DNA of 64,000 nucleotides from Hylemonella gracilis ATCC 19624 (lineage in GTDB: Bacteria; Pseudomonadota; Gammaproteobacteria; Burkholderiales; Burkholderiaceae_C). Under the pieces are notes generated by a model. The model was given only the letters and a program-made list of their open reading frames with translations. It made no database searches and was not told the DNA's origin. The position numbers were made by a program, and so were the translations under genes. The first letter of the stretch is position 1. Every line of letters starts with the position of its first letter. The stretch spans positions 1-64,000 of the forward strand of contig NZ_AEGR01000042.1 of NCBI RefSeq assembly GCF_000211835.1, written 5' to 3'. Positions 48,248 through 64,000 of this stretch are shown in pieces.

Positions 48248-48281
48248 GGCGCCAGGACTCTAGCGAAGAAGGCTCGCGCTG

Positions 48282-48323
48282 GGAACGAATGAATCGTTGC
48301 TTGCTTATGGCGACAACATCTAA
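48282..48323 (-). promoter_or_regulatory. Conserved ~43-bp element, copy B
   Basis: Minus strand: TTAGAT ... CATAAGC ... AACGATTCATTCGTTCC. The 17-bp core AAC-K-ATTCATT-Y-GTT-Y-C matches copy A (AACTATTCATTTGTTTC) at 14 of 17 positions. Located 34 bp before the SfnB-like gene start, in the 112-bp gap after the flavocytochrome gene. Confidence 0.6.
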
Positions 48324-48359
48324 GCGCCGCCGAACTCAGGCAGCGGCGCAGCGCGCGAC

Positions 48360-49646
48360 TCAGAGCAGCGCGTCGGCCCAGATGTTGCGCGCCCAGGACT
48401 TGGCGTACTGCCCTTCCAGCGCATTGGCGGCCGGCGACAGCCCGCCAGCGCCTTGCACCGCCACCACGGTCTTCTGTTCGGCGTTCCATTTGTGCACCGA
48501 AGCCACATGCACCACCTCGGTGGCGGACACGAAGCTGTAGCAGGTATTGGCGAGGATGGGCTCGGGGTTGACCTCGCGCCCCTGCAGCAGCGCGATCACC
48601 GCGTCCGCCGCGACCTTGCCGTGGTTGTTGGCCATGAAGCCGGATTTGGGCATGCCCGGCGCCGAGGCCGTGGCGTCGCCCAGCACATGCACACCCGGCG
48701 CGACGGCGGACTCGAAGCTGCGGAAGTCCACGCCCGCCCAGCGCCCGCCCACGTTGAGCAGCTGGGCCTGCTGGGCGATGCGGCCCGCCTGCTGCGGCGG
48801 CACCACGTTGAGCACGCCCGCGCGCACGGTGTCGAAGCTGGTCTCGATGGACAGGTTGCTGACGTCGACGCGCACCAGTTCACTGCTCGCCCGGTACTCG
48901 ACCAGGCCCGGGTACAGCTCGTTCCAGGCCTTGAGGAAGAGGCCCTTCTTGGAGACGATGTCGGGGTTGGCGTCCAACACGATGACCTTGGAGCGCGGTT
49001 TGTGCGCCTTGAAGTAGGACGCGACCTGGGAGACGCGCTCATAAGGTCCGGGCGGGCAGCGGTACGGCGCCTTGGGAATGTGCAGCACATAGGTGCCGCC
49101 GTTGTCCAAGGCTTCGAGCTGCTTGCGCAGCGCGACCGTCTGAGCGCCCGCCTTCCAGGCATGCAGCACCTTGGCTTGCGCCTCGGCGCTTTCCAACCCG
49201 GGTGTCTGGTTGTAGAGGAAATCGATGCCTGGCGACACGATGAGGCGGTCGTATTTCAGGGTGTCGCCACGCGCCAGCCGCACTTCCTTCTTGGCCACGT
49301 CGATGGCCGTGGCTTCGTCACGCACCACGCGCACGCCGTGCTTGCGCTGCAGCGTGTCGTAGCTCGTGGTCAGATTCTCGAGGGTCTCGTAGCCGCCCAG
49401 CACGAGGTTGGACAGCGGGCAGGAGATGAAGGCGGCCTCCCGTTCAACCAGCACCACCTCAAGCTCGGGCGCCCACAGTCGCAGGTACTTGGCCGCCGTC
49501 GCGCCGCCGTAGCCGCCGCCGATGACGACCACGCGCTGGCGCGCCGTGGCGGCCGGGGTTGCGCAGCCGGTCATGGCGGCCAGCGCTCCCGCGCCAGCGC
49601 CCACTGCAAGGGTGCGCAAAAGGGTTCTGCGTGCGATCTTGTTCAT
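48360..49646 (-). CDS. fccB: Flavocytochrome c sulfide dehydrogenase, flavoprotein subunit (FccB/SoxF type)
   Basis: 428 residues. Twin-arginine signal (ARRTLLRTLAVGAG) ending near AAMTGC. FAD-binding VVVIGGGYGGATAAKYL; Cys76 in FISCPLSN corresponds to the covalent flavin site, and Cys197 (YRCPPGP) with Cys369 (ANTCYSFV) form the redox-active disulfide of sulfide dehydrogenases. It oxidises sulfide to sulfane sulfur and passes electrons to the cytochrome subunit encoded 37 bp upstream. Its presence among sulfonate-use genes suggests removal of sulfide released by organosulfur breakdown. Confidence 0.9.
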   Translation of the reverse strand: MNKIARRTLLRTLAVGAGAGALAAMTGCATPAATARQRVVVIGGGYGGATAAKYLRLWAPELEVVLVEREAAFISCPLSNLVLGGYETLENLTTSYDTLQRKHGVRVVRDEATAIDVAKKEVRLARGDTLKYDRLIVSPGIDFLYNQTPGLESAEAQAKVLHAWKAGAQTVALRKQLEALDNGGTYVLHIPKAPYRCPPGPYERVSQVASYFKAHKPRSKVIVLDANPDIVSKKGLFLKAWNELYPGLVEYRASSELVRVDVSNLSIETSFDTVRAGVLNVVPPQQAGRIAQQAQLLNVGGRWAGVDFRSFESAVAPGVHVLGDATASAPGMPKSGFMANNHGKVAADAVIALLQGREVNPEPILANTCYSFVSATEVVHVASVHKWNAEQKTVVAVQGAGGLSPAANALEGQYAKSWARNIWADALL

Positions 49647-49683
49647 TTGCGAGTCTCCAGGGCTATCGAGGGTTGGGGCCGAT

Positions 49684-50007
49684 TCAAGGTTTCTGGGCGG
49701 CGAAATAGGCCGCCAGGCGTTCGAGCTCGGCGTCGCTGTAACCCTTGGCGTGCTGGTGCATCACCGTGGCCTGCAGCTCGCCCTTCTTGTAGGCCAGCAG
49801 CTTTTGCAGCAGCACGGCCTGGTCCTGCCCGGCGATCACCGGAATCGCGCCCCGCGCGGGGCCGCCCGCCCCGTTCGTGCCATGGCAGGCCGCGCAGCTG
49901 GCGGCCCAGACGCGGGCCTGGGTGTCCACGCCCTGCGCGGCGGCCTGGGTGTACAGGCCTACCGCCAGCATCAGCGCCAGGCCGGGAGCAATGAATGTTT
50001 TTTTCAT
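49684..50007 (-). CDS. Monoheme c-type cytochrome (FccA/SoxE-like partner)
   Basis: 107 residues from ATG 50007, with AAGGAAG upstream. Signal peptide ending TQAAA|QG, heme motif C38-A-A-C41-H42 and a probable axial Met in ATVMHQHAKG. Class I cytochrome c, periplasmic. Encoded just before fccB, so it is the likely electron acceptor of the sulfide dehydrogenase. FccA proteins often carry two hemes; this has one, as in SoxE or Chlorobium-type FccA. A conserved 43-bp element precedes it by 70 bp. Confidence 0.9.
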   Translation of the reverse strand: MKKTFIAPGLALMLAVGLYTQAAAQGVDTQARVWAASCAACHGTNGAGGPARGAIPVIAGQDQAVLLQKLLAYKKGELQATVMHQHAKGYSDAELERLAAYFAAQKP

Positions 50008-50077
50008 GACAGCTTCCTTGAAGTCCAAGACGGGAGATGCGTGACGGCGGCCAGTATCGGTGCCTCTCGGGCGGGGC

Positions 50078-50120
50078 GAAACAAATGAATAGTTCTTTGG
50101 ATATGACCCGCCTTGCATAA
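50078..50120 (-). promoter_or_regulatory. Conserved ~43-bp element, copy A
   Basis: Minus strand: TTATGC, 8 bp, TCATATC, then AACTATTCATTTGTTTC. It separates the amidohydrolase stop from the cytochrome gene and resembles copies B (48282) and C (46980). It marks the cytochrome-flavocytochrome pair as a separate, probably sulfur-controlled unit. Confidence 0.6.
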
Positions 50121-50126
50121 AAAGAC

Positions 50127-51005
50127 TCACACCCGCAGCAGCCGCGCCGCATTGCCGTAGAGTACCTTGTCGATCACGTCGGCATGGAATCCCAGCGCCA
50201 GCGCATCGTCGATGCTCTGGGTGATGGGACGAAACGGGTAGGAGGAGCCAAACAGCAGCTGGTCCGCCAGAAAACTGTTGGCGGCGTCCACGTAGACGCC
50301 GCTACCCGGTTGGAACAGGTACATGTCGGGCACCAGGAAAACGTTGTCGTAGCGAAAGGCCACGCCAATGGCCTGTTGCACATTCGGCCAATACCCGTGG
50401 TAGGCCACGAGCGGCACGCTCGGGAAGGCCTGGGCCACCCGCGCCAGAGGTGCGGGGTCGTTGTAGCTCAGGTCGGGCGTGGTCGGCCCGGTCATCAGGA
50501 ACACCGGCACGTTCAAGCTGCGCGCCAGCTCGTAGACCGGCCAATAGGCCCGGTCGTCGGGGTGGCGCGGCGGCTCGCCAAAACCGGGTTCGATCCCGAT
50601 GCCCCTCAAGCCCAGATGCTTGACGGCGTGCTCGGCCTCGGCCAGTGCCACCAGCTCGCCCTGCACCACCGGGTCCACGCCGGCAATGCCCAGCAGCTCG
50701 GGGTGGCCGCTGACGATTTGATGGATCGTCTCGTTGGGCAGATGCTGGCTGGGGGTGTGGCGTCCCACGACCACCGCCTGCGCGAGGCCATGGCTGCGCC
50801 CGGCCTCGCGCAGCTCGGCCAGAAAGCCCTCGCGGGTGCGCGAGCGGATGAAGTGCCCGTCATCGCCACGCGTGCCCACGCGCCGGTTGAGCCAGCGCGC
50901 CGTCGCCTCGCCGGGAGAATCCGGGGTCTTGCCGAAAAAATCATGCAGGTACGCCGGGCGGCAACGCATGTCGATCACGCGTTGGGGGGTGCTGGTGGTG
51001 CTCAT
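50127..51005 (-). CDS. Amidohydrolase-family (amidohydrolase 2) protein
   Basis: 292 residues from ATG 51005. TIM-barrel fold of PF04909: VIDMRCRPAYLHDFFGK at the start (the metal-site HxH is replaced by RCRP), GLRGIGIEPGFGEPP, PVFLMTGPTTPDL, VPLVAYHGYWPNV and the terminal LLFGSSYPFRPI, YGNAARLLRV. The first HxH metal ligands are missing, so it may be a metal-independent or altered member. It starts 25 bp after the ssuD stop, in an operon with ssuD and metNI. Its substrate is unknown; similar genes occur in sulfonate clusters. Confidence 0.85.
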   Translation of the reverse strand: MSTTSTPQRVIDMRCRPAYLHDFFGKTPDSPGEATARWLNRRVGTRGDDGHFIRSRTREGFLAELREAGRSHGLAQAVVVGRHTPSQHLPNETIHQIVSGHPELLGIAGVDPVVQGELVALAEAEHAVKHLGLRGIGIEPGFGEPPRHPDDRAYWPVYELARSLNVPVFLMTGPTTPDLSYNDPAPLARVAQAFPSVPLVAYHGYWPNVQQAIGVAFRYDNVFLVPDMYLFQPGSGVYVDAANSFLADQLLFGSSYPFRPITQSIDDALALGFHADVIDKVLYGNAARLLRV

Positions 51006-51030
51006 GGCGGCAAGGGGGCGGGAAAGGTAT

Positions 51031-52176
51031 TCAGGAAGCGGAGGCCTGTTGGGAGGCACGGACATCGAAGGCGCCGCCCGTGAGCACCTGGTCGCGCAGG
51101 GTCACGGCCTGCTTGCCAGGCAGGAGCGGGAACACCAGCTCGGCGAAACGCACGGCCTCCTCGAGGTGCGGATATCCAGACAGCACGAAGCTGCTCACGC
51201 CCACGTCCGCGTACTCCTGCAGCCGTGCCGCGACTTCCCGCGGATTGCCGACCAACGCCGTGCCCGCGCCACCGCGCACCAGGCCCACGCCGGCCCAGAG
51301 GTTGGGGCCAACCACGAGCTGCTCACGCCGCCCACCATGCAAGGCGGCCATGCGCTGCTGACCCACGGAATCCATCTTCGCGTAGTTGGCCTGCGCGGCG
51401 GCGATGTCCTCGTCGGTCAAGTGGCTGATCAGGCGGTCGGCGTCGGCCCAGGCCTCCTCGCTGGTTTCGCGCACGATGACATGCAGGCGCACGCCGAAGC
51501 GCAGGGCCGCGGGATCACGTCCATGCTTGGCCGCCCTCGCCTTCACGTCGGTGATCTTCTGCGCGACGGCGGCAGGCGGCTCGCCCCAGCTCAGGTAGGC
51601 GTCGACGTGCTTGGCCGCGAGTTCGTGGGCGGCTGGCGAGGAGCCTCCAAAGTACAGCGGCGGATAGGGCCGCGACACCGGCGCATGGAAGTTCTGCGCG
51701 CCCTTGACGCGCAGATGACGGCCGTCGAAATCGACTTTCTCGCCCTGCAACAAACGCCGCCAGATGGTCAGGAACTCGTCGCTGGCCTCGTAGCGTTCGT
51801 CATGGCTGTAGAACACCCCGTCGGCGGCCAGCTCGGTCGCGTCACCCCCAGGCACCACGTTCAACAGCAGCCGACCGCCCAGGGCCTGATCCAACGTGGC
51901 GGCCTGGCGGGCGGACGCGGTGGGGTTGCCCAGGGACGTACGCAAGGCCACCAGCAGCTTGATGCGCTGCGTGACCGGAATCAAGCTGGCCGCGGTGACC
52001 CAGGGGTCCTGGCAGGAGCTGCCCGTCGGAATCAGCAGACCGTCATACCCCAGCCGGTCGGCGGTGACGGCGATCTCACGCAGGTAGGCATTGGTCGGCG
52101 CGCGGCCGAAATCGCTCTTGCCCAGGTAACGGGTGTCGCCCGAGGTGGGCAGGAACCAGAAGATGTCGAGGCTCAC
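51031..52176 (-). CDS. ssuD: FMNH2-dependent alkanesulfonate monooxygenase
   Basis: 381 residues from GTG 52176, with AAGGA upstream; this gives exactly the length of E. coli SsuD. A longer upstream reading would overlap metI and is rejected. Bacterial luciferase-like TIM barrel: [72 protein letters not shown]. It releases sulfite and an aldehyde from C2-C10 alkanesulfonates using reduced FMN and O2. The flavin reductase SsuE is not in the window. Confidence 0.94.
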
Positions 52177-52205
52177 GGAAAATCCTTGTTGCGTCTTGGA
52201 GGGTT

Positions 52206-52868
52206 TCAGCGCTCGCGCAGCCAGCGCGCGAGCCGGTCGCCAGCGAACTGCACCAGGGTGACCAGGGCGATCAGCACGGCGATCACGAGCACCATCACCT
52301 GGGTATCGAAGCGCTGGTAGCCGTAGCGGATGGCCAGGTCGCCCAGACCTCCCGCGCCCACCGCGCCGGCCATGGCGGAGGCGCCGATCAGCGACACGAC
52401 GGTGATGGTGAAGCCACCGACGATGCCAGGCAGTGCCTCGGGCAGCAGCACGTGGCGCACGATGTGCCAGCGCTTGCAGCCCATGGCCTGCGCGGCCTCG
52501 ATCAGGCCCGCCTCGACTTCGCGCAGGCTGACCTCGGCAATGCGCGCGAAGAAAGGCGTGGCACTGATGGCCAAGGGCACGATCGCGGCCCACACGCCAA
52601 TGGTGGTGCCCGCCACCACGCGGGTGAAGGGAATCAGTGCCACCAGCAGCACGATGAAGGGCGTGGCGCGAAAGCCGTTGATGACGCTGCCGACGACGCG
52701 GTTGACGCGCGGCGAAGGCAGGAAACCGCTCGGCGCGGTGACGATCAGCAGCACGGCCAGCGGAACACCCGCCACGAAGGCGATGGAGGCCGAGACCCCC
52801 ACCATCATCAGCGTGTCAAGGAAGGCCTGCAGATAGCGTTCAAAGGGAATGCTCAAGGTCCAGGACAT
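52206..52868 (-). CDS. metI: Methionine-type ABC transporter permease MetI
   Basis: 220 residues, five spans. EAA loop [20 protein letters not shown] and [20 protein letters not shown] are MetI-type, and the last span ends [16 protein letters not shown]. Overlaps metN by 29 bp. With MetN it forms the MetN2I2 core; it must serve several binding proteins encoded upstream. ssuD begins 29 bp downstream, tying uptake and desulfonation together. Confidence 0.94.
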
Positions 52869-53967
52869 GACCGATCACCTCGATGGAGTGCGCGAGGGCC
52901 TGCGGCCCCTGCGTCAAAAGGGAAAAATCCGGCAGCGGCGCGGTGCCCGCGACGGACAGCAGGAGGCGGCCATGCACATGGCCCTGGATGCGGTCGACCC
53001 CGCCGTGCACCAGGCGCGTGCCCGCGGGCAGGGCCTGGGCAATGCGCGCGATATCCGGCTCCAGCGCATTGGCACCGGTGTAGCCCAGCCGCAGGATTTT
53101 GCGATGGGCCAGCCCTTCGGCGGGCGGGTGCGGCAGCAAGCGGCCTTGCAGGTCGTCGGGCAGTCCATGCTGCAGCGGCGCCAGCAAGGCGCGCGTGGCG
53201 ACGTGCGCGGGCGCGCCAAACACCTGCCAGACCTCGCCGAATTCGGCGATGCGGCCCTGCTCAAGCACCAAGACCTGGTCCGCGATCTCGCGGATCACGC
53301 TCATCTCGTGCGTGATCAGGATGATGGTGATGCCCAGCCGACGGTTGATGCCGCGCAGCAGTTGCAGGATGGACTGCGTGGTCTCGGGGTCCAGCGCCGA
53401 CGTGGCCTCGTCGCACAGCAGGATCTGCGGGTCGGTGGCCAGCGCGCGGGCGATCCCCACGCGTTGCTTCTGTCCGCCGGACAGCCGCGCGGGCCGGACG
53501 TTCGCCTTGTCCTGCAAGCCCACCAGGGCCAGCAAGTCCCGCACGCGCCGGTCGATCTCGACGCGCGAGGCGCCCGCGACACGCAGAGGCAGCGCCACGT
53601 TCTCGTACACCGTCTTGGCCGACAGCAGGTTGAAGTGCTGGAAGATCATGCCGACGCGGCGGCGCAGGCGGACCAATTCATCCTCGTTCAGGCTGGCAAT
53701 GTCGACGCCATCGACCAACACCCGGCCGGACGAGGGCCGCTCCAGCCGATTGATCGTGCGCAGCAGGCTGGACTTGCCCGCGCCGCTGCGCCCAATGATG
53801 CCGAAGATGCTGCCCGCGGGAATGCTCAGGCTGATGTCCTGCAACGCGTGCACTGGCCCCGAGGACGCTTGATAGGTCTTGCCCAGGTGCTCAAAGGCGA
53901 CCGTTCCCGCGCGGACATGCGCACAGGACGCTGGCTGCAGGTGGATCGGCGAATGTGGCGCGTTCAT
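52840..53967 (-). CDS. metN: Methionine-type ABC transporter ATPase MetN
   Basis: 375 residues from ATG 53967, which overlaps the preceding binding-protein stop by ATGA. Walker A GRSGAGKS, signature LSGGQKQR, Walker B LLCDEATSALDP. A C-terminal NIL/ACT-like domain (about 290-375, RKILRLGYTGANALEPDIA, IQGHVHGRLLLSVAG) is the site where methionine trans-inhibits E. coli MetNI. A Ser-rich linker precedes GPVHALQDIS. Neighbours suggest transport of organosulfur compounds as well as or instead of methionine. Confidence 0.94.
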   Translation of the reverse strand: MNAPHSPIHLQPASCAHVRAGTVAFEHLGKTYQASSGPVHALQDISLSIPAGSIFGIIGRSGAGKSSLLRTINRLERPSSGRVLVDGVDIASLNEDELVRLRRRVGMIFQHFNLLSAKTVYENVALPLRVAGASRVEIDRRVRDLLALVGLQDKANVRPARLSGGQKQRVGIARALATDPQILLCDEATSALDPETTQSILQLLRGINRRLGITIILITHEMSVIREIADQVLVLEQGRIAEFGEVWQVFGAPAHVATRALLAPLQHGLPDDLQGRLLPHPPAEGLAHRKILRLGYTGANALEPDIARIAQALPAGTRLVHGGVDRIQGHVHGRLLLSVAGTAPLPDFSLLTQGPQALAHSIEVIGHVLDLEHSL

Positions 53968-54791
53968 GGTTGCGGCTTTTGCTTCATCCACGCGAGGCGG
54001 TAGAAGTGGGTGTTGCTGCCGTAGGACGCGTGCAGCTGCGTGCGCACCGCTTCGGACGCCTGGTAGATGGCGATGTACTTGGCCAGGCGCGGGTCGGCGG
54101 CATTGTCCTCGCGGGCGACGAACTGGATGGCCCAGTAGCTGTCGTCGTCGAGCGAATAGCGCAGCGCGGCATGGGCCACGTCCTTGCGACCGGCGGTCAC
54201 GAAGCTGCTGGGAGGGGAGACTTCCACGTCCACGTCTTCGAACGAGCGAACCAGCTGCGGCCCGGGAATCTCGACGAGCTTGAGCTTCTTCGGGTTGGTG
54301 GCGATGTCGTCGGGGGTGATCGCGCGCGGGGTGCGCACGTTGAGCGTGATCAGGCCGATGTCGCGCAAGAAGCCCAGCGCTCGCGTCTGATTGGCGGGGT
54401 CGTTGGCGATGGCCAGGCGCGCGCCCGTGGGAATATCTTCGATCCTCTTGTAGCGCGCCGAGTACAGTCCCAGGCTGCCCTGCAGGCCCACCCCAATGCT
54501 GCGGAACTTGTAGCCGCGCTCGCGGACGGCATTGTCGAGGAAGGCGTGGTGCTGGAAGTAGTTGGCATCCAGGTCCTTGGCCGCGAGCGCGGTATTGGGA
54601 GTGATCCAGTCGCTGAACTCGACGATCTGGACTTCCAGGCCTTGCTTGCGGGCCTCGCGTGCGGCGACTTCCGCTGAGTCGGCCAGCGGACCGGGTGTCA
54701 CCCCGATCTTGAGCGGGGCCTGGGCCCAGGCGGTGGCGGCCAGCAGAGCGAAGAACGCGAGAGTGGTGCGGAGGAGAATAGAAAAGCGCAT
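53964..54791 (-). CDS. MetQ/NlpA-family binding protein 1
   Basis: 275 residues. Signal peptide ending TAWA|QA with no lipobox Cys, so a soluble periplasmic protein instead of the usual lipoprotein. NlpA/MetQ core: KIGVTPGPLADS, EFSDWITPNTALAAKDLDANYFQH, AIANDPANQTRALGFLRDIGL, PGPQLVRSFEDVDVEV. At the position where classical MetQ has an Ile-Asn-x-Asn-Tyr-Ala segment, this protein reads PPSSFVTAG, indicating a different ligand pocket. Translationally coupled to metN. Last of four such genes in transcription order. Confidence 0.92.
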   Translation of the reverse strand: MRFSILLRTTLAFFALLAATAWAQAPLKIGVTPGPLADSAEVAAREARKQGLEVQIVEFSDWITPNTALAAKDLDANYFQHHAFLDNAVRERGYKFRSIGVGLQGSLGLYSARYKRIEDIPTGARLAIANDPANQTRALGFLRDIGLITLNVRTPRAITPDDIATNPKKLKLVEIPGPQLVRSFEDVDVEVSPPSSFVTAGRKDVAHAALRYSLDDDSYWAIQFVAREDNAADPRLAKYIAIYQASEAVRTQLHASYGSNTHFYRLAWMKQKPQP

Positions 54792-54858
54792 GGGTTTCGG
54801 AAAGGTCAGACGGTGACGAAGCCCCCTGCGCGCCGCGCGGCGGCAGGGATTTGCAAGC

Positions 54859-55668
54859 CTACTTTTGCAGCCACGGCAGGGTGTACAGCTTGGCGTCGTT
54901 GTTAAAGCGCGAGGCGATCACCTCGCGCACCCGGGCCGAGTTCTGGAACAAGGACACGAACTTGGCGATCTTCGCGTCCTTGGCCTTGTCGGAACGGGCC
55001 ACGAAGCCCATGGCGTAGAAGGTGTCGGCGATGCCGGAATACAGCAGCGCCTGGCTGGCTTGCTCCTTCTTGCCCGCGTTGAAGAAGTAGCTCGGCCAGA
55101 CCACCACCAGATCCAGATCGTCCAGAGACCGGATGAGCTGCGGACCCTCGATCTCGAAGAACTGCAGCTGCTTGGGGTTCTCGATGACGTCGTGCACCGT
55201 GGCGCCCACGGCCTCGCCCCGCCTCAGCTTGATGAGACCGGCTTTCTGCAACAGCAGCAAGCCGCGCCCCTGGTTCACCGGGTCATTGGCCACCGCGACC
55301 TTGGCCTTGTTGGGAACGTCGGCCAGGCGCTTGTGGCGGCTGGAATAAATGCCGATGTTCTGCAGCAGCCCCAGGCCCACGAACTCCAGCTTGTAGCCGC
55401 GCTCCTTGATGGCGTTGTTCAAGAACGCCTGGTGCTGGAAGAAATTGAGATCAATGTCGCCGTTGTTGACGGCCTCGTTCGGCAAGGTCCAATCGGTGAA
55501 CTCGACCAATCGCAGGTCGAGTCCCTGCGCCTTGGCCTCCGGAATCAGCGCCGCGACGGCGTCCGCCGTGGCGCCGGGCGTCGCGCCGATCTTGATGACG
55601 TCGCCCGCGTGGGCGATGGCGGCCAGCAGCAAGGCGGCCAGCCCGGTCAGAAGGTGTGAAACTCGCAT
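54859..55668 (-). CDS. MetQ/NlpA-family binding protein 2
   Basis: 269 residues. Signal peptide ending AIAHA|GD, no lipobox. Core segments KIGATPGATADAV, EFTDWTLPNEAVNNGDIDLNFFQH, VANDPVNQGRGLLLLQKAGLI and EGPQLIRSLDDLDLVV. The pocket segment is WPSYFFNAG. Ends NNDAKLYTLPWLQK. It shares VNQGRGLLLLQKAGLIKL with protein 3 and so belongs to a recent tandem duplication. Gap of 67 bp to protein 1. Confidence 0.92.
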   Translation of the reverse strand: MRVSHLLTGLAALLLAAIAHAGDVIKIGATPGATADAVAALIPEAKAQGLDLRLVEFTDWTLPNEAVNNGDIDLNFFQHQAFLNNAIKERGYKLEFVGLGLLQNIGIYSSRHKRLADVPNKAKVAVANDPVNQGRGLLLLQKAGLIKLRRGEAVGATVHDVIENPKQLQFFEIEGPQLIRSLDDLDLVVVWPSYFFNAGKKEQASQALLYSGIADTFYAMGFVARSDKAKDAKIAKFVSLFQNSARVREVIASRFNNDAKLYTLPWLQK

Positions 55669-55696
55669 GATGTTGGACTCCGCGATGGGTGAAGCG

Positions 55697-56506
55697 TCAC
55701 TTGACGTTGAGCCAGGTCAGCGTGTAGAGCTTGTTGTCGTTGGCGAAGGCCTTGTGAATGGCGGCCTTGACGGCGTCCGAGCCTTGGAACACCTTGATGA
55801 ACTTCTGGATCACCGGGTCCTTGGTGCGTTCCGACTTCGTGACGAACTGGATCGCGAAGCGCGCGTCCTCGATGCCGGAATAGACCAGGCCACTGGAGGG
55901 GTTGAAGGCCTTGGACGCGACGATGAAATGCGGGTAGCCCTGGGCGATGTCCACGTCACCGGTGATGCGCACAAGCTGCGGACCCTCGACTTCCACGAAG
56001 CTCAGCTTCTTGGGGTTCTCAACGATGTCGTCCAGGGTGCCCAGAAATCCGACGCCAGGCTTGAGCTTGATGAGGCCCGCCTTCTGCAGCAGCAACAGGC
56101 CGCGCCCCTGATTCACCGGGTCGTTGGCGATGCCCACCTTGCCGCCCTGGGGAATGTCGTTCAAGGATTTGTGCTTGAGCGAATACAGGCCGACGTTGGC
56201 CAGGAAGCTCACACCAGCGCTGGCCAGCTTGAAACCGTTCTTCTTGATGGCGTTGTCCAGGAAGGGCTGGTGTTGGAAGAAGTTGATGTCCAGGTCGCCC
56301 GCGTCCACGGCCACGTTGGGCGTGGTCCAGTCGGTGAATTCGACAACGGTGACCTCGATGCCCTGGGCCTTGGCCTCCTTGACGACCGCGCCAATGGCGT
56401 CGGCGTAGACACCGGGCAGCACGCCGATCTTGAGTTTGTCGGCGGCCTGCGCGCTCAGGACGGACAGCGCGATCAGCGGGGCGATGAGCAGTTGCTGGAT
56501 CTTCAT
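55697..56506 (-). CDS. MetQ/NlpA-family binding protein 3
   Basis: 269 residues. Signal peptide ending LSAQA|AD, no lipobox. Core EFTDWTTPNVAVDAGDLDINFFQH, IANDPVNQGRGLLLLQKAGLI, EGPQLVRITGDVDIAQ, with pocket segment YPHFIVASK, which lacks the Asn-rich signature of Met-binding relatives. Ends NDNKLYTLTWLNVK. 28 bp upstream of protein 2. Confidence 0.92.
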   Translation of the reverse strand: MKIQQLLIAPLIALSVLSAQAADKLKIGVLPGVYADAIGAVVKEAKAQGIEVTVVEFTDWTTPNVAVDAGDLDINFFQHQPFLDNAIKKNGFKLASAGVSFLANVGLYSLKHKSLNDIPQGGKVGIANDPVNQGRGLLLLQKAGLIKLKPGVGFLGTLDDIVENPKKLSFVEVEGPQLVRITGDVDIAQGYPHFIVASKAFNPSSGLVYSGIEDARFAIQFVTKSERTKDPVIQKFIKVFQGSDAVKAAIHKAFANDNKLYTLTWLNVK

Positions 56507-56599
56507 GGTGATGGGATGGGTTGATGGATGAAGGATGAAGAAAAAAGGGAGAAAAAGCGGGCGCAGGTGCCGAGGGAGGAAGCCGGTTCGGACTTCAGG

Positions 56600-57418
56600 T
56601 CACAGCGGTCTGGCCAGCCAGGGCAGGCTGTAAAACTTCTCGTTGTGGGCGTAGGACGCGCGGATGCGTTCGCGCACGGCGGTCGAGGTCTGATAGATCT
56701 GGATGAACTGCAACAGGCGCGGGTCGCTGGCCTTGTCCTGGCGCGCGACGAAGTGGATGGCATACCGCACATCCTCCGGCCCGGTGTAGAGCAGACCGTG
56801 TTTGTCGGCGATGTCGGCCTTGCCAGCGGCGACATAGTGCGAGGTCACGCCTTGGGCCAAGTCCACGTCTTCCAGGGCGCGCACGAGCTGCGGCCCCTCG
56901 ACTTCGACGAAATTGAGCTTGCGGGGATTGACGACGATGTCGTTGAGGGTCGCGCGGGCCCCCGAGCCCTCACGCAACTGGATCAGGCCGGCACGTTCGA
57001 GCAGCAGCAGGCCGCGCCCCTGGTTGGCCGGGTCATTGGCCACGGCCACGCGCGCGCCCTCCTTCAAGTCCTGGAAGCGCCGCACCTTCAGCGAGAACAG
57101 GCCCTGGTTGGGCAGCAAGCCCGGGGCGACGGCCACGAACTTGTAGGCGCGGTCCTTGACGGCGTTTTCGAGGAAAGGCAGATGCTGGAAGTAATTGGCG
57201 TCGAGGTCGCCCGCGGCCAGCGCCGTGTTGGGACCGGTCCACTCGGTGAATTCGATGACCTTGACGTCCAGGCCGCGCTTGCGCGCCTCCTGGGCCGCCG
57301 TCTCGATGGAATCGGCGATGGCGCCCGGTGTGACGCCGATGCGCAGTGGCTGGGCATGCAGACCGGTGCACAGCAGGAGCGCGGTCAGCGCGGCCAGGAG
57401 CGTGGTTAAGCGTTTCAT
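56600..57418 (-). CDS. MetQ/NlpA-family binding protein 4
   Basis: 272 residues. Signal peptide ends near CTGLHA|QP; the Cys in LLLCTG is not followed by a lipobox pattern, so lipidation is unlikely. Core EFTEWTGPNTALAAGDLDANYFQH, VANDPANQGRGLLLLERAGLI, EGPQLVRALEDVDLAQ, pocket segment VTSHYVAAGK. First of the four in transcription order, 32 bp after the NtaA-type monooxygenase. The 93-bp gap after it (56507-56599) has no recognisable terminator; it contains a GGGAGAAAAA stretch. Confidence 0.92.
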   Translation of the reverse strand: MKRLTTLLAALTALLLCTGLHAQPLRIGVTPGAIADSIETAAQEARKRGLDVKVIEFTEWTGPNTALAAGDLDANYFQHLPFLENAVKDRAYKFVAVAPGLLPNQGLFSLKVRRFQDLKEGARVAVANDPANQGRGLLLLERAGLIQLREGSGARATLNDIVVNPRKLNFVEVEGPQLVRALEDVDLAQGVTSHYVAAGKADIADKHGLLYTGPEDVRYAIHFVARQDKASDPRLLQFIQIYQTSTAVRERIRASYAHNEKFYSLPWLARPL

Positions 57419-57450
57419 GACGGGACTCCTTGTCTGAGGGGGATGTCGGA

Positions 57451-58809
57451 TCAGGTGAAGCGGAAGGCGTGGGCGGCGTGGCGCTCGGGCAAGCGATCGC
57501 CCTCGCCGAACAGCCGATGGCGCAGACTGCCTTCGGCGTAGCCCGTCTTGTAGAGGCCCCGGTTCTGCAGCTCGGGCACGACCAGGTCGATGAAGTCCTC
57601 ATAGCTTTCGGGCACCACGGTGCGGCTGAGGTTGAACCCGTCAACCCCAGCCTCCTCCACCCAGGACTGCAATTCGTCGGCAACCTCGGCCGCATTGCCC
57701 ACGATGGCCGGGTAACGCCCCCCCAGCTCGAACAGCTCCAGCAGCTTGCGACGCGTCCAGCCCTGCTGCCGAGCGGTCTGGCTGGCGGACTCGATGGCAT
57801 TGCCGGGCGAGTAGTCCACCGGCGCGTCCAGGTCATAGGCCGAGAAGTCGACGCCGGTGCTGGCCGCGAAGTGGGCCAGGCCCGCTTCCCGGCTGACGTA
57901 GTTGCGGTAATCGGCGTATTTCTCCTGTGCCAGTGCGGTCGTGGGACCCGACACCACGGCCGCGCCCACAAACACTTTCACGTCATCGGGCCGGCGGCCA
58001 GCGAGTACCAGTTGCTCGCGCAGGTCCTGCACCGTCTTGCGGGCGGCCGCCTTGTTGGGCGACGAGATGAACACGCACTCCGCGTGACGCGCGGCGAAGC
58101 GTTGACCGCGGCCGGAACTACCGGCCTGGTACAGCACCGGTGTGCGCTGCGGCGAGGGTTCGCTCAAGTGGTACCCCTCGACATCGAAATAGGTACCGTG
58201 GTGCTTGACCGGGCGCACGCGCGAGGGATCGGCGAAACGGCGCGCTGCCTTGTCGCGGTGCACCGCATCGTCAGCCCAGCTACCCTCCCAGAGCTGGTAG
58301 AGCACGTCCAGGTATTCGTCGGCGCGGTCGTAGCGCTCATCGTGCGGCAACTGCTGCGCCAGGCCCATGGCGCGGGCGGCACTGTCGAGGTAACCGGTGA
58401 CGATGTTCCAGCCGATGCGCCCCTGCGTCAGATGGTCCAGCGTGGAGAAGCGCCGCGCCAGCAGGTAGGGCTGCTCGTAGGTCAGGTTCACCGTGACGCC
58501 GAACCCGAGCTTCTGGGTCACGGCGGCCATGGCGGACACCAGCAGCAAGGGATCGTTGACCGGCAACTGGATGGACTCGCGCAGCGTGGTGTCCACATTG
58601 CCTTGGTAGACGTCGTAAACGCCCACGATGTCGGCCAGGAACAGGCCGTCGAAGAGACCGCGCTCCAGCGTTTTCGCGAGCTGTGTCCAGTAAGACAGCG
58701 TGTTGTAGCGGGTGGACTCATCGCGCGGGTGCGTCCACAGCCCGTGGTTGATGTGTCCCACGCAATTCATATTGAATGCGTTGAGCAGAATCTGCTTGCT
58801 TTGCGACAT
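57451..58809 (-). CDS. NtaA/SnaA/DmoA-type FMN-dependent monooxygenase
   Basis: 452 residues from ATG 58809. Bacterial-luciferase superfamily, NtaA/DszA/DmoA branch: start QILLNAFNMNCVGHINHGLWTHP, DGLFLADIVGVYDVY, FGVTVNLTYEQPYLLARRFSTLDHLTQGR in two segments, YQAGSSGRGQRFAARHAECVF, and the C-terminal FIDLVVPELQNRG. It uses reduced FMN from a separate reductase to oxygenate, and often cleave, C-S or C-N bonds (dimethylsulfide, sulfones, nitrilotriacetate). Genomic context points to an organosulfur substrate. Starts 11 bp after the ssuA stop. Confidence 0.9.
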   Translation of the reverse strand: MSQSKQILLNAFNMNCVGHINHGLWTHPRDESTRYNTLSYWTQLAKTLERGLFDGLFLADIVGVYDVYQGNVDTTLRESIQLPVNDPLLLVSAMAAVTQKLGFGVTVNLTYEQPYLLARRFSTLDHLTQGRIGWNIVTGYLDSAARAMGLAQQLPHDERYDRADEYLDVLYQLWEGSWADDAVHRDKAARRFADPSRVRPVKHHGTYFDVEGYHLSEPSPQRTPVLYQAGSSGRGQRFAARHAECVFISSPNKAAARKTVQDLREQLVLAGRRPDDVKVFVGAAVVSGPTTALAQEKYADYRNYVSREAGLAHFAASTGVDFSAYDLDAPVDYSPGNAIESASQTARQQGWTRRKLLELFELGGRYPAIVGNAAEVADELQSWVEEAGVDGFNLSRTVVPESYEDFIDLVVPELQNRGLYKTGYAEGSLRHRLFGEGDRLPERHAAHAFRFT

Positions 58810-58820
58810 GGCCTGAGCTC

Positions 58821-59783
58821 TCAACGCGGTGCTTGCAGCGCGGCGGCGAAGGAGGTGTCGACAATCTTGCGAACATCAAACGCCGAGGTCAGGATGCCTT
58901 CCTTTTGCAGGAAGTCAGCCGTGGTCTGGAACTGGCTCTGCGTTGCGTTGTCCAGCGGTCCCACGGTCAGCTTGGCCTGACGAATCCAGTGGCGCGAAAC
59001 GTCTTGATCGATGGAGGTGCGCTTGGCCCAGGCGTCGGCATAGGTGTCGACATTGGCCTCCACCCAGGCGCGGGCCTTGGCGATGCGCACGAAGAAATCG
59101 GCGATGGCCGCGCGCTTGGCATCGACCGAGGGAGCATAGGCCGCAATCGCGCTCAGCGCTGGAATCAGACCCTCGGCGGTGAGGAGCACGCGCGCATCGG
59201 AGCGCACGATCTGCTGCGAGATGTAGGGTTCCCAAACCGGGAAGGCATCGATGTTGCCGCCTTGGAACGCGGTGCCCGCGTCAATCGGCAAGAGCTTCAC
59301 CCATTGCACATGGTCCGATGGGAGGCCGGCCTTCGCGAGCGCGGCCGAGGTGAGCTGCTGCCCCCAGTTGCCGGGCCAGTAAGCGACCTTCTTGCCCTTG
59401 AGGTCGGCGATGGATTGGGCGGTGGAGTTCTTGGGCACGAGCAAGGCCACGGTCTTGGGGCTCTGGCGCGAGACGCCAATCAGCTTGATCGTGCTGCTCT
59501 TGGACGCGGCGAACAAAAAGGCTGAGTCACCGAGGAAGCCGATATCCACGGCGCCCGCGTTCAGCGCTTCAATCAGCGGCGCGCCGGCCTGGAATTGCGA
59601 CCACTCCACTTTGTAGGGCGCACCCTCGAAGGCTTTGGACAGCTCGGCCGAGGCACGCAAGTTGTAGTAGCTGATGTCGCCGACCTTGAGCACCACAGGA
59701 TCTGCGGCCTGGGACAGACCCGAGGCGACAACAAGACCCAGCAACAGCAGGGCACGGTGGCGAAGGCAATTCAGAAGATTCAT
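58821..59783 (-). CDS. ssuA: Sulfonate ABC transporter periplasmic binding protein (SsuA-like)
   Basis: 320 residues from ATG 59783. Signal peptide ending GLSQA|AD. SsuA/TauA fold: VVLKVGDISYYNLRASAELSK, VEWSQFQAGAPLIEALNAGAVDIGFLGD, KGKKVAYWPGNWGQQL, GGNIDAFPVWEPYISQQIV. Works with ssuB/ssuC encoded upstream. The distance from ssuB (two SfnB-like genes in between) is unusual but the direction and unit are shared. Ligand: alkane- or arylsulfonate by context. Confidence 0.9.
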   Translation of the reverse strand: MNLLNCLRHRALLLLGLVVASGLSQAADPVVLKVGDISYYNLRASAELSKAFEGAPYKVEWSQFQAGAPLIEALNAGAVDIGFLGDSAFLFAASKSSTIKLIGVSRQSPKTVALLVPKNSTAQSIADLKGKKVAYWPGNWGQQLTSAALAKAGLPSDHVQWVKLLPIDAGTAFQGGNIDAFPVWEPYISQQIVRSDARVLLTAEGLIPALSAIAAYAPSVDAKRAAIADFFVRIAKARAWVEANVDTYADAWAKRTSIDQDVSRHWIRQAKLTVGPLDNATQSQFQTTADFLQKEGILTSAFDVRKIVDTSFAAALQAPR

Positions 59784-59838
59784 GAAAGCGTGCTTTCGAG
59801 CAGTGGGTAGAAGTGGAGGAGGCTTGGATGGGATGAGC

Positions 59839-61110
59839 TCAAAGCGCACCATGTCTTGGGGGCAGCCGGTCGTTGAGGTAGTAGTTGCCGATGGCGTGGT
59901 ACTTCCAGCGCACCGGGTCATGCAAGGTGTGCACGCGCGCGTTGCGCCAGAAGCGGTCCAGTCCACGACCGCCCAGGGTGGCCGCGGTGCCCCCCAGCTC
60001 GAACAGGCGCGTGCCCGCGTCCAGCGAGGCGGTCGTCGTGGCGGCGCGCGCCTCGGCCACGGCGACCGAGGCCTCGGCCACGCTGCGCTCGGTGGGATCG
60101 GCCTGGGCCGCGTCCACGAAGCGCGCGGCGCGCCGCACCAGGGCCTCCGCGGCGCGGATGCGCACCGCGATCTCGCCCACCTGCTGGATCAGCAGCGGGT
60201 CCTGCGCCGCCAGCTCCACCTTGGCGTCGGGCCAGGGACGGGCATGCGCGCGGATGAAAGGCAACATGGCGGCGAAGGCGCCGCGCGCCAAGCCCAGGTC
60301 GATGGCCGCGTGCATGATCTGCGCGAAGGGGCCGATGGTCGTCGGCCGCTCGAAGGACGCCAGGAAAGGCACCACCCATTCCGGCTCCACGCGCACGTTC
60401 TCGAACGTGACGGAGCCGCTGCCGGTGACGCGCTGACCAAAGCCGTCCCAATCGTCGGTGATGGACACGCCCTCGGCCGCGCGCGGAACGAAGGCCAGGT
60501 AGGTCACTTCCCTGCCCTGCTCCAGCGCCGTCACCAAGGTGGGTATCCAGTGCGCGAACAAGGCACCCGTGCAATAGAACTTCTGCCCCTGCACGCGAAA
60601 ACCTTGGCCATCGGGGATCAGCTGGGTGCGGCGCTTGTAATCCTTGTGGCCGATCTCGGCCAGCGCGTTGCCAAAGCGCTCACCCGCCAACACGCGTTCG
60701 TAGAAGAAGGCCTTTTGGGCATCCGTGCCCCCCACGCGCAACACTTCCAGAGCGTAGTAGTGGTTCTGAGGGATCTGGCCGATGCTGCTGTCGGCCGCGC
60801 AAATGAGGGCGATGACCTCGGCCAGGACAGCGCTGCCCACGCCGGGCCCGCCATGGTCGCGCGGCACGGTGATGCCCCACAGACCACTGTCGGTGAAGGC
60901 GTCCAGCTCGGTCCAGGGCAAGATGCGTTCGCGATCGCGCCGGGCGGCGTCCCGGGCAAAGTCGCTGGCCAGACCTTGGGCAACCAGCACGGCGAGCGTG
61001 CCATCGATGGGGTCCGGGCGGCGGCGAGGCGCCCTCGCTGGCGCGGGTCGGGCCTGCGCGTCGTTGTGAGTGGGTGGCGCGGCGTGCAGCAAGGGTTCGA
61101 CGAGCGACAT
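59839..61110 (-). CDS. SfnB/DszC-like acyl-CoA dehydrogenase-fold flavoprotein
   Basis: 423 residues. Contains GITVPRDHGGPGVGSAVLAEV, SSIGQIPQNHYYALEVLR, KFYCTGALFAHWIPTL, WDGFGQRVTGSGSV and the branch hallmark DRFWRNARVHTLHDPVRWK. An N-terminal Ala/Pro/Arg-rich tail of ~35 residues is not part of the fold. SfnB in Pseudomonas takes part in dimethylsulfone/dimethylsulfide use; DszC oxidises dibenzothiophene with FMNH2. Follows the second copy after 24 bp, with AAGGAAC upstream of the ATG. It and the next gene upstream are clear paralogues. Confidence 0.88.
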   Translation of the reverse strand: MSLVEPLLHAAPPTHNDAQARPAPARAPRRRPDPIDGTLAVLVAQGLASDFARDAARRDRERILPWTELDAFTDSGLWGITVPRDHGGPGVGSAVLAEVIALICAADSSIGQIPQNHYYALEVLRVGGTDAQKAFFYERVLAGERFGNALAEIGHKDYKRRTQLIPDGQGFRVQGQKFYCTGALFAHWIPTLVTALEQGREVTYLAFVPRAAEGVSITDDWDGFGQRVTGSGSVTFENVRVEPEWVVPFLASFERPTTIGPFAQIMHAAIDLGLARGAFAAMLPFIRAHARPWPDAKVELAAQDPLLIQQVGEIAVRIRAAEALVRRAARFVDAAQADPTERSVAEASVAVAEARAATTTASLDAGTRLFELGGTAATLGGRGLDRFWRNARVHTLHDPVRWKYHAIGNYYLNDRLPPRHGAL

Positions 61111-61134
61111 GGCGTGTTGTTCCTTGGCTCGGTG

Positions 61135-62361
61135 TCAGTTCCAGGAGTGGCGGGTTGGCAACGTGCCATTGAGCAGGTAGTTGCCGATGAGATGCGCCTT
61201 CCAGCGCACCGGGTCGTGCAAGGTGTGCACGCGCGCGTTGCGCCAGTGCCGGTCCAGGTTGTGGGTGGCGCGCGTGGCCGAACTGCCCGCGAGTTCGAAC
61301 AGCTTCTCGCTGGCCTCCAGGGCGATGCGCGTGGTCAGGACCTTGGCTTCGGCCACGGCGATGGAGGCCCGCGCGCTGTCCTCGGCACTGATGCGGGGCA
61401 AGGCGGCCACTTCATCGAGCACGCGCCCGGCTTCGAGCAGCACCTCGTGCGCGGCGTGCAGGTCGACCTGCAGACGCCCCACGTCCGCGATGAGGTAAGG
61501 ATCGTCATGGGCGTGCTGCAGCCCCGAATCCGGCCAGGGCCGGGTGCGCTCGCGCACGAAGCGCTGGGCGTCCGCCAGCGCCGCCTGGGCAATGCCTTGG
61601 TCGATGGAGGCCTGGATGATTTGGGAGCCGGGACCGTACAGGCCGGGCCGATCCGCCAGTTGCCAGACGGGCAGGACGTCCTGCGGCGAGACCGGCACGT
61701 CGTCGAAACGCACCTGGCCGCTGGCGGTGGTGCGCTGACCGAAGGAATCCCAGTCGTCGACGATGCTCAGCCCGGGCGCGTCGCGCGGCACCCAGACCTG
61801 CACGGCGCGGCCTTCGTCATCGGTGGCGCGCGTGGGAATGCGGTGCGCGAACAGCGCGCCGGTCGAGTAGAAACGGCGCCCATTGAGTCGTAGCCCGCCG
61901 GACGTGCTGCTGAGACGGGTCGCGCCCTGGAAGATGGTGCGGGCCTCGGCCGACTTGCGCTCGGGCCCGGCATTGCCGAAACGCCGCCCGGCCAGCACCT
62001 CGCCGTAGAAACGCGCTTTCTGTGCCGGGTCACCCAGTTCGCGCAGCACGCCCAGTACCCCGTACTGGTTCTGCGGAATCTGGCCCAGCGAGGCGTCGGC
62101 CTCGCACAGGATCACGAAGACCTGGGCCAGCGTGGCGTAGGAAACCTCGGCGCCGCCGAACTCGCGCGGCACGGTGATGCCGCCCAGACCGCTCGCGGAA
62201 AACCGATTCAACTCCTCCCAGGGCAGGATGCGCTCGCGGTCGCGCCGCGCGGCCAGGGGCGCGAACTCGGCCGCCAGCTCGTGGGCCACGGTCAGGGCCT
62301 CGGCGTCGTCGCGGATGCGGCGAACTTCGGACGGGTCGGGAAACGGAATGGGAGCAGACAT
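61135..62361 (-). CDS. SfnB/DszC-like acyl-CoA dehydrogenase-fold flavoprotein
   Basis: 408 residues from ATG 62361. Core motifs GGITVPREFGGAEVSYATLAQ, ASLGQIPQNQYGVLGVLREL, RRFYSTGALFAHRIPT, WDSFGQRTTASGQVRF and DRHWRNARVHTLHDPVRWKA parallel its downstream paralogue. No clear ribosome-binding site precedes the ATG: the run of T of a strong terminator ends only ~10 nt before it, so expression may depend on read-through or on another signal. Confidence 0.88.
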   Translation of the reverse strand: MSAPIPFPDPSEVRRIRDDAEALTVAHELAAEFAPLAARRDRERILPWEELNRFSASGLGGITVPREFGGAEVSYATLAQVFVILCEADASLGQIPQNQYGVLGVLRELGDPAQKARFYGEVLAGRRFGNAGPERKSAEARTIFQGATRLSSTSGGLRLNGRRFYSTGALFAHRIPTRATDDEGRAVQVWVPRDAPGLSIVDDWDSFGQRTTASGQVRFDDVPVSPQDVLPVWQLADRPGLYGPGSQIIQASIDQGIAQAALADAQRFVRERTRPWPDSGLQHAHDDPYLIADVGRLQVDLHAAHEVLLEAGRVLDEVAALPRISAEDSARASIAVAEAKVLTTRIALEASEKLFELAGSSATRATHNLDRHWRNARVHTLHDPVRWKAHLIGNYLLNGTLPTRHSWN

Positions 62362-62370
62362 GTTCGTGTG

Positions 62371-62407: not shown

Positions 62408-62468
62408 GGCAAACGGTCCACAGGGGACCGAGGAGACAACTTCGAAATTCAGTGCATCGCGTCGTGCC

Positions 62469-63227
62469 TCAAAAGGCATGGGCCTTGCGCAGGGCCTCCA
62501 AGGTGCGCAAGCGCAAGGGGATCAAGCGCTCGTCCTCGCGCTCACGCGGGCGTGGCAGGCCGATGTCGATCTCGCGCGGGGCGGCGCCAGCCTTGGCCTC
62601 GAGCACCAGCACGCGGTCGCTGAGCACCACCGCCTCGTCCACGTCGTGCGTGACCAGCAACACGGTGAGTCCATGGCGGCGGGCCAGGTCCACCAGCAAA
62701 TCCTGCAGCTTGATGCGGGTGAACGCGTCGACGGCCGAGAAGGGCTCATCCAGCAGCAGCAGGCGCGGCTGGGTGAACAGGCCGCGCGCGATCGCCACGC
62801 GCTGGGCCTGCCCACCCGACAGCTGCTTGGGCAGGCGTTCCTCCAAGCCAGCCAGGCCCACCTCGGCCAACAGTTCGCCCACCCGCGGGTGCTGGCGGCC
62901 TCCTTGACGGATCGACTGGCCGAGATCGAAGGCCACGTTCTGGGCGACGTTGAGCCAGGGAAAGAGCCTCGGCTCCTGGAAGATGAAGCCAATCTCACGC
63001 GTGATGTCGGTCTGGGGTTGCCCAGCGAGCACGACACGCCCTTCGTAGTCGGTGTCCAGCCCTGCAACGATGCGCAGCAAGGTGCTCTTGCCGCAGCCGC
63101 TGGCGCCGACCAGGCTGACGATCTCGCCCGGCGCCAAGCTCAGGCTCAGGTCCTGCAGCACGGCACGATCACCAAAGGCCTTGCGCCGGACCTGAACGTC
63201 CAGCAACGCGTCCGCGCCCGCCATCAT
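62469..63227 (-). CDS. ssuB: Sulfonate ABC transporter ATPase (SsuB-like)
   Basis: 252 residues. Walker A GASGCGKS, Q-loop FIFQEPRLFPWL, signature LSGGQAQR, Walker B LLLDEPFSAVDAFTR and switch THDVDEAV, the SsuB/TauB pattern (ERLPKQLSGG, ALADRVLVLE type). The start overlaps the ssuC stop by 4 bp. Couples ATP hydrolysis to sulfonate import with SsuC and SsuA. Confidence 0.93.
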   Translation of the reverse strand: MMAGADALLDVQVRRKAFGDRAVLQDLSLSLAPGEIVSLVGASGCGKSTLLRIVAGLDTDYEGRVVLAGQPQTDITREIGFIFQEPRLFPWLNVAQNVAFDLGQSIRQGGRQHPRVGELLAEVGLAGLEERLPKQLSGGQAQRVAIARGLFTQPRLLLLDEPFSAVDAFTRIKLQDLLVDLARRHGLTVLLVTHDVDEAVVLSDRVLVLEAKAGAAPREIDIGLPRPREREDERLIPLRLRTLEALRKAHAF

Positions 63228-64000
63228 GCAGCCCCCCGTGCGTTGTCATAGCTGTCACGCCAGTGCAGCAGACGTCGCTCCAGCCAAGCCAAGGCGGTGT
63301 CGGTGACCTTGCCCAGCAGGGCCAGCAGCACGATGGCCGCCAGCACGATGTCAGGGCGCCCCATTTCGCGGCCGTCGGTCAACAGATAGCCCAGGCCCTT
63401 GGTCGCCGCGATGAGTTCGGCCGCGACCATGAACATCCACGCCAGGCTCAAGCCGTTGCGCAAGCCGGTGAGCACCGCGGGTAGGGCCGCGGGCAGCAGG
63501 ACGCGCCGGGCCAGCTCGACCGGACCCAGCCGGTACATGCGCGCCACCTCGACCAGCTTGCGGTCGACGTCACGGAACCCGGAGGCCACGCCCATGTAGA
63601 CCGGGAAAAAGCCCCCGATGGCGATCAGCACGACCTTGGACGCCTCGTCGATGCCCAGCCACAGCAGCAGCAAGGGCACCCAAGCGAGCGAGGGAATGGC
63701 GCGCAGCGCCTGGAAGGTCGGGTCCAGCAAGGCTTCACCCCGGCGCGAGAGACCGACCACCGTTCCGATCACGATGGCGAGCACGGCGCCGATGGCGAAT
63801 CCCGCGAACACCCGCGCGCTGCTCGCGGCCACATGGGTTGTCAAGCCTTGCGCGCCAAAAGCGAGCAGCGTCCGCGCAATGTCGCTGGGAGCCGGCAGAA
63901 GATGGGCATTGACCCACCCCAGACGGGAAGCGACTTCCCACAGGATCACAACCAGCAGGGGCAGCACCAGGCCTAGAACCGAAGCGCGCCCCGAATCACG
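63224..64000 (-). CDS. ssuC: Sulfonate ABC transporter permease (SsuC-like), 5' end off the window
   Basis: The frame is open through the right edge (preceding residues read RDSGRASVLGL), so the start lies beyond base 64000; the GTG at 63967 is internal. About 258 residues are visible, close to full SsuC length, so few are missing. Six spans with EAA loop VARMYRLGPVELARRVLLPAALPAVLTGL and SLAWMFMVAAELIAATKGLGYLL in the SsuC/TauC pattern. First visible gene of the minus-strand organosulfur region. Confidence 0.92.
   Translation of the reverse strand, partial: RDSGRASVLGLVLPLLVVILWEVASRLGWVNAHLLPAPSDIARTLLAFGAQGLTTHVAASSARVFAGFAIGAVLAIVIGTVVGLSRRGEALLDPTFQALRAIPSLAWVPLLLLWLGIDEASKVVLIAIGGFFPVYMGVASGFRDVDRKLVEVARMYRLGPVELARRVLLPAALPAVLTGLRNGLSLAWMFMVAAELIAATKGLGYLLTDGREMGRPDIVLAAIVLLALLGKVTDTALAWLERRLLHWRDSYDNARGAA

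Follow-up and report, generated by a model that had tools for sequence, protein, structure and literature searches.

The window analysed here is a stretch of 64,000 nucleotides (nt) of Hylemonella gracilis ATCC 19624 (contig NZ_AEGR01000042.1, positions 1 to 64,000), and it carries four intact, co-oriented genes of the MetQ/NlpA family lying side by side on the minus strand at 53964-57418 (275, 269, 269, and 272 codons), with one metN-metI pair after them. The question raised by this locus is what the four encoded binding proteins, Q1 to Q4, take up. An initial annotation of this DNA had proposed that they are an expanded set of binders for several organosulfur ligands feeding one MetNI core, and this interpretation is supported in outline by our analysis. 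With a probability of about 0.6, the array belongs to an importer of the MetNIQ-like type whose substrates are organic acids that contain sulfur and lack an alpha-amino group, with several binding proteins that share one MetNI and do not read the alpha-amino-acid end of methionine. The four genes are as follows, with the pocket signature explained below:

57418 to 56600 (56600..57418), minus strand: Q4 (P0004), MetQ-like binding protein, 272 amino acids (aa), pocket WFHFRVI, V213 lineage
55697..56506, minus strand: Q3 (P0003), MetQ-like binding protein, 269 aa, pocket WFHFRYI
54859..55668, minus strand: Q2 (P0002), MetQ-like binding protein, 269 aa, pocket WFHFRWM, W213 lineage
53964..54791, minus strand: Q1 (P0001), MetQ-like binding protein, 275 aa, pocket WFHFRPI, divergent long branch

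All four proteins pass the MetQ/NlpA model PF03180 (210-228 bits against a gathering score of 27), which bears out the count and arrangement of genes given in the initial annotation, and their pairwise identity is 43-52%. They fail the model of methionine MetQ, TIGR00363 (142-172 against 228.85), which was passed by five of seven canonical domain-only controls, the remaining two being 1-3 bits short. They also fail NF008285 (151-183 against 374), but this model is not telling, since none of the seven controls passes it. The AlphaFold models have a predicted local distance difference test (pLDDT) score of 93.5 for Q3 and 92.8 for Q1, and the first 31 rows of a Foldseek search with the Q3 model are all MetQ-family structures (template modelling score by target, 0.75-0.89). 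The modelled fold of Q3 is that of MetQ; its open or closed state is not readable from the model.

The ligand pocket of the Neisseria meningitidis protein (Nm) served as the reference. According to PMC6739813, in Neisseria MetQ R156, N213, and N238 hold methionine by its amino and carboxyl groups, Y81, F98, H100, and Y103 pack against its thioether, and the N238A change lowers the affinity for L-Met more than 1e5-fold. The equivalent N229A change in E. coli MetQ moves the dissociation constant from 6.6 nM to 300 uM (PMC12357092). Taking Nm positions 81, 98, 100, 103, 156, 213, and 238 as a pocket signature, the MetQ proteins of E. coli and Neisseria and two other solved ones read YFHYRNN. Five of the seven columns are the same across Q1-Q4 (W81, F98, H100, F103, and R156), so that the four differ at the remaining two: the N213 equivalent is P, W, Y, and V in Q1 to Q4, respectively, and the N238 equivalent is I, M, I, and I. 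Judged by the R156/N213/N238 triad, Q1-Q4 thus fail as methionine MetQ, with Arg present and both Asn replaced. The replacement of the Asn-containing segment had been seen correctly in the initial annotation, as it aligns with Nm N213; the more telling change at N238 was absent from it.

The same pattern extends well beyond this genome. A pocket survey was made on 184 aligned rows, the four reference MetQ included, and domain matches over fewer than 180 model positions were dropped from the pocket and control rows. Trp is found at position 81 in 149 of the 184 rows, and none of these 149 has Asn238 (123 I, 9 V, 8 M, 7 L, 1 A, and 1 gap), while 27 of the 35 non-W81 rows, the four references among them, retain it. 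After thinning to less than 80% identity, the figures are 0/75 for W81 rows and 18/24 for the others. Arg156 is present in 184/184 rows, and the signature of Q3, WFHFRYI, is found in 88/180 rows when the four references are excluded. Read against the published MetQ structures, these substitutions suggest that the acid-binding Arg and the hydrophobic box were kept and that recognition of the amino group was lost.

A tree of 99 rows was built from the 184 by removing those that shared 80% identity or more with a retained row or were shorter than 215 residues. The 75 W81 rows, Q1-Q4 included, form one clade (100/100) apart from the 24 rows that hold the solved methionine binders. The initial annotation had set against its own proposal the case of all four lying inside canonical MetQ with a conserved pocket; none of the four was placed within the canonical methionine-binding clade, and both Asn are lost. 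MetQ models were matched by 55/55 scanned clade members at E <= 1e-20. The 55-row alignments A2 and A3 contain 51 of 63 listed references, all W81 by selection, and the four window proteins. At a finer level, Q2 belongs to a clade of 5 rows with W213 (100/100) and Q4 to one of 6 rows with V213 (100/99), Q3 groups with Y213 relatives, and Q1 is a long branch next to one other divergent row. A single clade of Q1-Q4 was rejected by the approximately unbiased (AU) test (p-AU 1.3e-39), and therefore these genes are old paralogs from separate lineages and a recent tandem amplification is ruled out. An exclusive clade of Q1 and Q4 was rejected as well (p-AU 0.00029). The MetN of the array also stands apart: array-type MetN form a clade of 54 rows in a quick tree (98 in the Shimodaira-Hasegawa-like approximate likelihood ratio test), and none of seven comparison MetN, one of them a fragment on a long branch, falls inside it.

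Some other variants of this pocket were observed. The genome has a fifth MetQ outside the window (P0005, L001:1393-2217), which adjoins its own metNI and carries N213P and N238Q; it clusters with Neisseria MetQ in the tree despite the altered triad, and no NCBIfam model matches it at E <= 1e-60. Thus, none of the five members of this genome over the Pfam cut-off has the full R-N-N triad. A further paralog type, WYNYRFI, in which H100 is replaced by Asn, is the neighbour of an NtaA gene in several Comamonadaceae (stop-to-stop frames at L016:6490-8454, L013:15930-16973, and L119:7528-8967), and the second copies in Acinetobacter often have Gln in place of H100 (WFQFRFI, 10 rows). Tandem MetQ-like copies with the signatures QFHFRIN, SFHFRVN, and AFHFRVN occur at L138 (G016:C112:6000-13116) and L116:642-1601; they retain N238 and have lost Y81 and N213, and may be a second non-methionine subfamily.

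The genes around the array point to sulfur metabolism, as family models found the SsuD, SsuABC, NtaA-type, and SfnB-type genes that had been named in the initial annotation as part of the same run. Six of them lie upstream of the array, and MetN, MetI, and then SsuD lie downstream, in the following order:

63224..64000, minus strand: SsuC-type permease, under its curated cut-off (224.2 against 347), extending beyond the window edge
62469..63227, minus strand: SsuB-type ATPase, under its curated cut-off (218.1 against 395)
61135..62361, minus strand: SfnB-type oxygenase b; the open reading frame (ORF) opens at 62439 and the start at 62361 is judged from sequence
59839..61110, minus strand: SfnB-type (DszC-like) oxygenase a, assigned by family model and structure relatives
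58821..59783, minus strand: SsuA-family sulfonate binding protein; the ORF opens at 59966 and the start at 59783 is judged from sequence
57451..58824, minus strand: NtaA/DmoA-family monooxygenase dependent on reduced flavin mononucleotide (FMNH2)
52840..53991, minus strand: MetN-like ATPase with a C-terminal NIL domain, overlapping Q1 by 28 nt, in a clade of its own
52206..52868, minus strand: MetI-like permease (NCBIfam MetI model NF008049, 220.7 against a cut-off of 212)
51031..52176, minus strand: SsuD alkanesulfonate monooxygenase (575.6 against a cut-off of 518.2), start estimated

The gaps between neighbours, from SsuC to an amidohydrolase gene, are only about -35 to +107 nt (the starts of SsuA, SfnB b, and SsuD being estimates), and for this reason the genes are probably transcribed in one or a few units. 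The MetN of the array does not reach the cut-off of the equivalog TIGR02314 (346.7 against 499.7), and its NIL domain was detected at 33.3 against 24. The two upstream SfnB genes pass the SfnB model TIGR04022 (586.8 and 592 against 430.9), which a third SfnB-like gene at 47084-48247 fails (297.6). The NtaA-type enzyme passes the NtaA/DmoA model TIGR03860 (563 against 279.7) and has the dimethyl-sulfide monooxygenase DmoA (6ak1) as its nearest solved structure, and that of SfnB a is DszC, followed by methanesulfinate monooxygenase.

This association recurs in relatives. At least 543 related loci were confirmed, and the best 80 named loci were used for counts. At a distance of up to 8 kb from a W81-type gene, with flanks and contig ends limiting the counts, 76 of the 80 have MetI, 75 have MetN, 67 the NtaA-type gene, and 66 the SfnB-type gene, both oxygenases being near in 62; counted by genus label (n=37), the figures are 35 for MetN, 35 for MetI, 32 for NtaA, and 33 for SfnB. 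As controls, we took 20 canonical MetQ loci from among the top PF03180 hits in genomes of the same family, each with flanks of at most 8 kb. All 20 have the R-N-N pocket and none has an NtaA or SfnB oxygenase nearby; MetN is near in 5/20, MetI in 2/20, and SsuBCD in 1/20. The recurrent context, the absence of oxygenases at the controls, and the single MetNI beside the array with its MetN in a separate clade thus support part of the expanded-set proposal.

With respect to the length of the array, the maximum number of W81-type genes in direct succession is one in 47, two in 32, and three in 1 of the 80 loci, and among ten further stretches, some on the same contigs as the 80, it is three in 2, two in 7, and one in 1. 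The run of four in the window is therefore the longest among the loci compared, and 2/80 loci and one further genome (L119) have four W81-type genes that are split up. Tandem copies are a common pattern of which this array is the extreme, and the distinct subfamily is the more general result. The system is patchy and accessory: by score, this genome is the only one of 26 in the genus to have the W81 clade (15 of the 26 are rated 90% complete or better), and 10 of 399 genomes of the order, this one included, have it at E <= 1e-80.

The importer that we propose would work as follows, and its ligand class, the sharing of MetNI, and the order of reactions are what we infer. Q1-Q4 would be secreted to the periplasm as binding proteins of a MetNIQ-like subfamily, apparently without lipidation. 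Arg156 could bind the carboxylate, sulfonate, or sulfinate group of a ligand, and the aromatic box W81, F98, H100, and F103 would suit an S-alkyl group; with hydrophobic residues in place of both Asn that contact the amino and carboxyl groups, the alpha-amino-acid end would no longer be read. The most likely ligands would be small organosulfur acids without an alpha-amino group, such as thioether, sulfoxide, or sulfone carboxylates. The loaded protein would dock on MetNI for import, all four delivering to one MetNI-like importer. Inside the cell, the SfnB (DszC-like) oxygenases would oxidise the thioether or sulfoxide sulfur, the NtaA/DmoA-type enzymes would then cut the C-S bond, and SsuD would act last, releasing sulfite, a chemistry modelled by analogy on DszC, DmoA, and the dimethyl sulfide (DMS) pathway of Acinetobacter baylyi. 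The SsuABC-type genes of the run presumably serve sulfonates, which would leave other organosulfur acids for the MetQ-like set.

Several observations weigh against this proposal. The relatives were found with patterns taken from the window's own proteins and 21 of the 80 loci are from Acinetobacter, so the sampling is biased; neither oxygenase is near in 9/80 loci; and the controls were chosen as canonical and are unmatched in some ways, with few MetN and MetI and one SsuBCD. Lipidated MetQ is reported to be needed for the interaction with MetNI in Neisseria (PMC8416018), and Q1-Q4 seem to be non-lipidated. The lack of a lipobox in all four, found by a simple motif scan, had been reported correctly in the initial annotation, but it says little as an argument: 27/30 non-W81 rows also lack the motif, as do 143/145 W81 rows and the fifth MetQ of the genome, and we have dropped it as a subfamily marker. 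Loss of N295 of MetN, the transinhibition site, is not diagnostic either; N295 is present in 5/73 cluster MetN, and its loss was dropped as a marker of non-methionine systems since four of five control MetN are also without it.

Whether the four proteins differ in ligand was approached by comparing columns among three lineages of 5, 6, and 7 rows. Sixteen columns are fixed within each lineage and differ between them, 5 of the 16 in three ways; position 213 is fixed as W, V, or Y, and 6/16 of these paralog-specific columns are at the ligand loop 212-218. They lie closer to the pocket than columns in general (p 0.0011, 0.0012, and 0.00013 within 2, 3, and 5 residues), but not significantly so when compared with clade-fixed columns, the fair background (p 0.11, 0.18, and 0.10), and there is no enrichment at the seven pocket residues themselves (1/16, p 0.38 and 0.80). 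These two null results also count against the proposal, and we have dropped the paralog-specific positions as proof of distinct ligands, so that this part of the expanded-set claim is weakened together with the lipobox argument. The pattern at 212-218 matches what divergence in specificity would look like, and Q1-Q4 may have different ligands.

These results bear directly on the idea that Q1-Q4 are redundant copies kept for dosage, with one shared organosulfur ligand. It agrees with the five pocket columns common to the four and with the lack of significant enrichment just described, but the copies belong to different old lineages with the identities given above, and position 213 is fixed by lineage, which makes this idea improbable. 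An unlikely explanation, although a less improbable one, is that a remodelled pocket still binds methionine or a derivative (sulfoxide, sulfone, D-Met, or N-acyl-Met), the paralogs widening a methionine-like range. Arg156 and the aromatic box are kept, the fold and transporter are MetNIQ-like, and an N-acylated methionine could do without the amino-group Asn. Against it stand the absence of N238 from all 148 W81 rows with a residue at that position and the recurrent linkage to S-oxygenases (the neighbour search did not cover methionine genes).

It is highly improbable that some of the four work with another permease, such as SsuBC, or as sensors, and do not feed the MetNI of the array. SsuB and SsuC are indeed in the same run, but MetN and MetI accompany nearly all of the best 80 relatives at the counts given above, and MetQ-type proteins are known partners of MetNI. 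The importer for organosulfur acids without an alpha-amino group is thus the reading that we prefer. We give even odds to the broader proposal that MetNIQ-like importers for organosulfur compounds other than amino acids (thioether, sulfoxide, or sulfone acids) are widespread and form an undescribed class, in which paralogous binders with different pockets plug into one MetNI as a modular uptake front end of soil bacteria for SfnB/NtaA/SsuD salvage. Family models put these genes nearest to methionine transporters, and if the pocket has been read correctly, many proteobacterial 'MetQ' annotations would be wrong. The array would also offer a candidate import step for bacterial salvage of thioether, sulfone, and sulfonate sulfur, and, for the MetNI family, an example of a single type I importer that is served by several binding proteins.

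Compared with known systems, Q1-Q4 share with the E. coli and Neisseria MetQ (4yah, 3ir1, 6dzx, and 7mbz) the fold, PF03180, Arg156, the aromatic thioether box, and the MetNI-type pairing, and differ from them in the loss of both Asn, the Y81 to W and Y103 to F changes, the absence of a lipobox, the separate clade, and scores under the TIGR00363 cut-off. PG110 of Staphylococcus aureus (1p99) is a MetQ-family protein that is said to bind the dipeptide Gly-Met, and it would be an example of this fold accommodating something other than free methionine; it is a Gram-positive protein with no known tie to organosulfur oxygenases. The SsuEADCB sulfonate system has Ssu-type genes in common with this run, as well as the SsuD end step, but its binding protein is of the SsuA type and Q1-Q4 are of the MetQ type.

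In the sulfur-assimilation pathway of A. baylyi ADP1 for DMS, dimethyl sulfoxide (DMSO), and dimethyl sulfone (DMSO2), group D oxygenases take DMS to DMSO2, no group C enzyme oxidises DMS, and SsuD acts last, as described in the abstract, Results, and Discussion of PMC13352529. Unlike the array described here, no MetQ-type importer appears in those sections, and the main text has no match for NlpA or for binding protein (MetQ was not searched there). The text of PMC12581299 has no match for metN, metQ, or sfnB, and that of PMC4501297 none for NlpA, metQ, metN, sfnB, or YaeC. Among the matches listed for MetQ, SfnB, and DMS in a limited paper collection, none dealt with MetQ-like binders in organosulfur clusters, as judged by title and abstract opening.

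With respect to the rest of the window, an Rfam scan at gathering thresholds returned two tRNAs and nothing else. The G+C content per 4-kb step is 64.5-69.1% over 48001-64000 and 60.6-66.5% over 1-48000, which is not markedly odd; recent transfer is thus not shown by base composition, although the system is patchy in the genus. Between the DszC/SfnB-like gene at 47084-48247 and the amidohydrolase gene, a flavoprotein is encoded at 48360-49646 on the minus strand that, judged from its sequence, resembles the flavin subunits of sulfide dehydrogenases and has a twin-arginine-like start; it has no NCBIfam match at E <= 1e-30. The sulfur gene run seems to continue past the window end, where sulfatase-like, SfnB-like, and nitroreductase/flavin-reductase-like genes, named by the look of their sequences, are found (L007:5877-9394), together with more SsuA/SsuB-type genes. 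The nitroreductase/flavin-reductase-like gene is a possible flavin supplier for the oxygenases.

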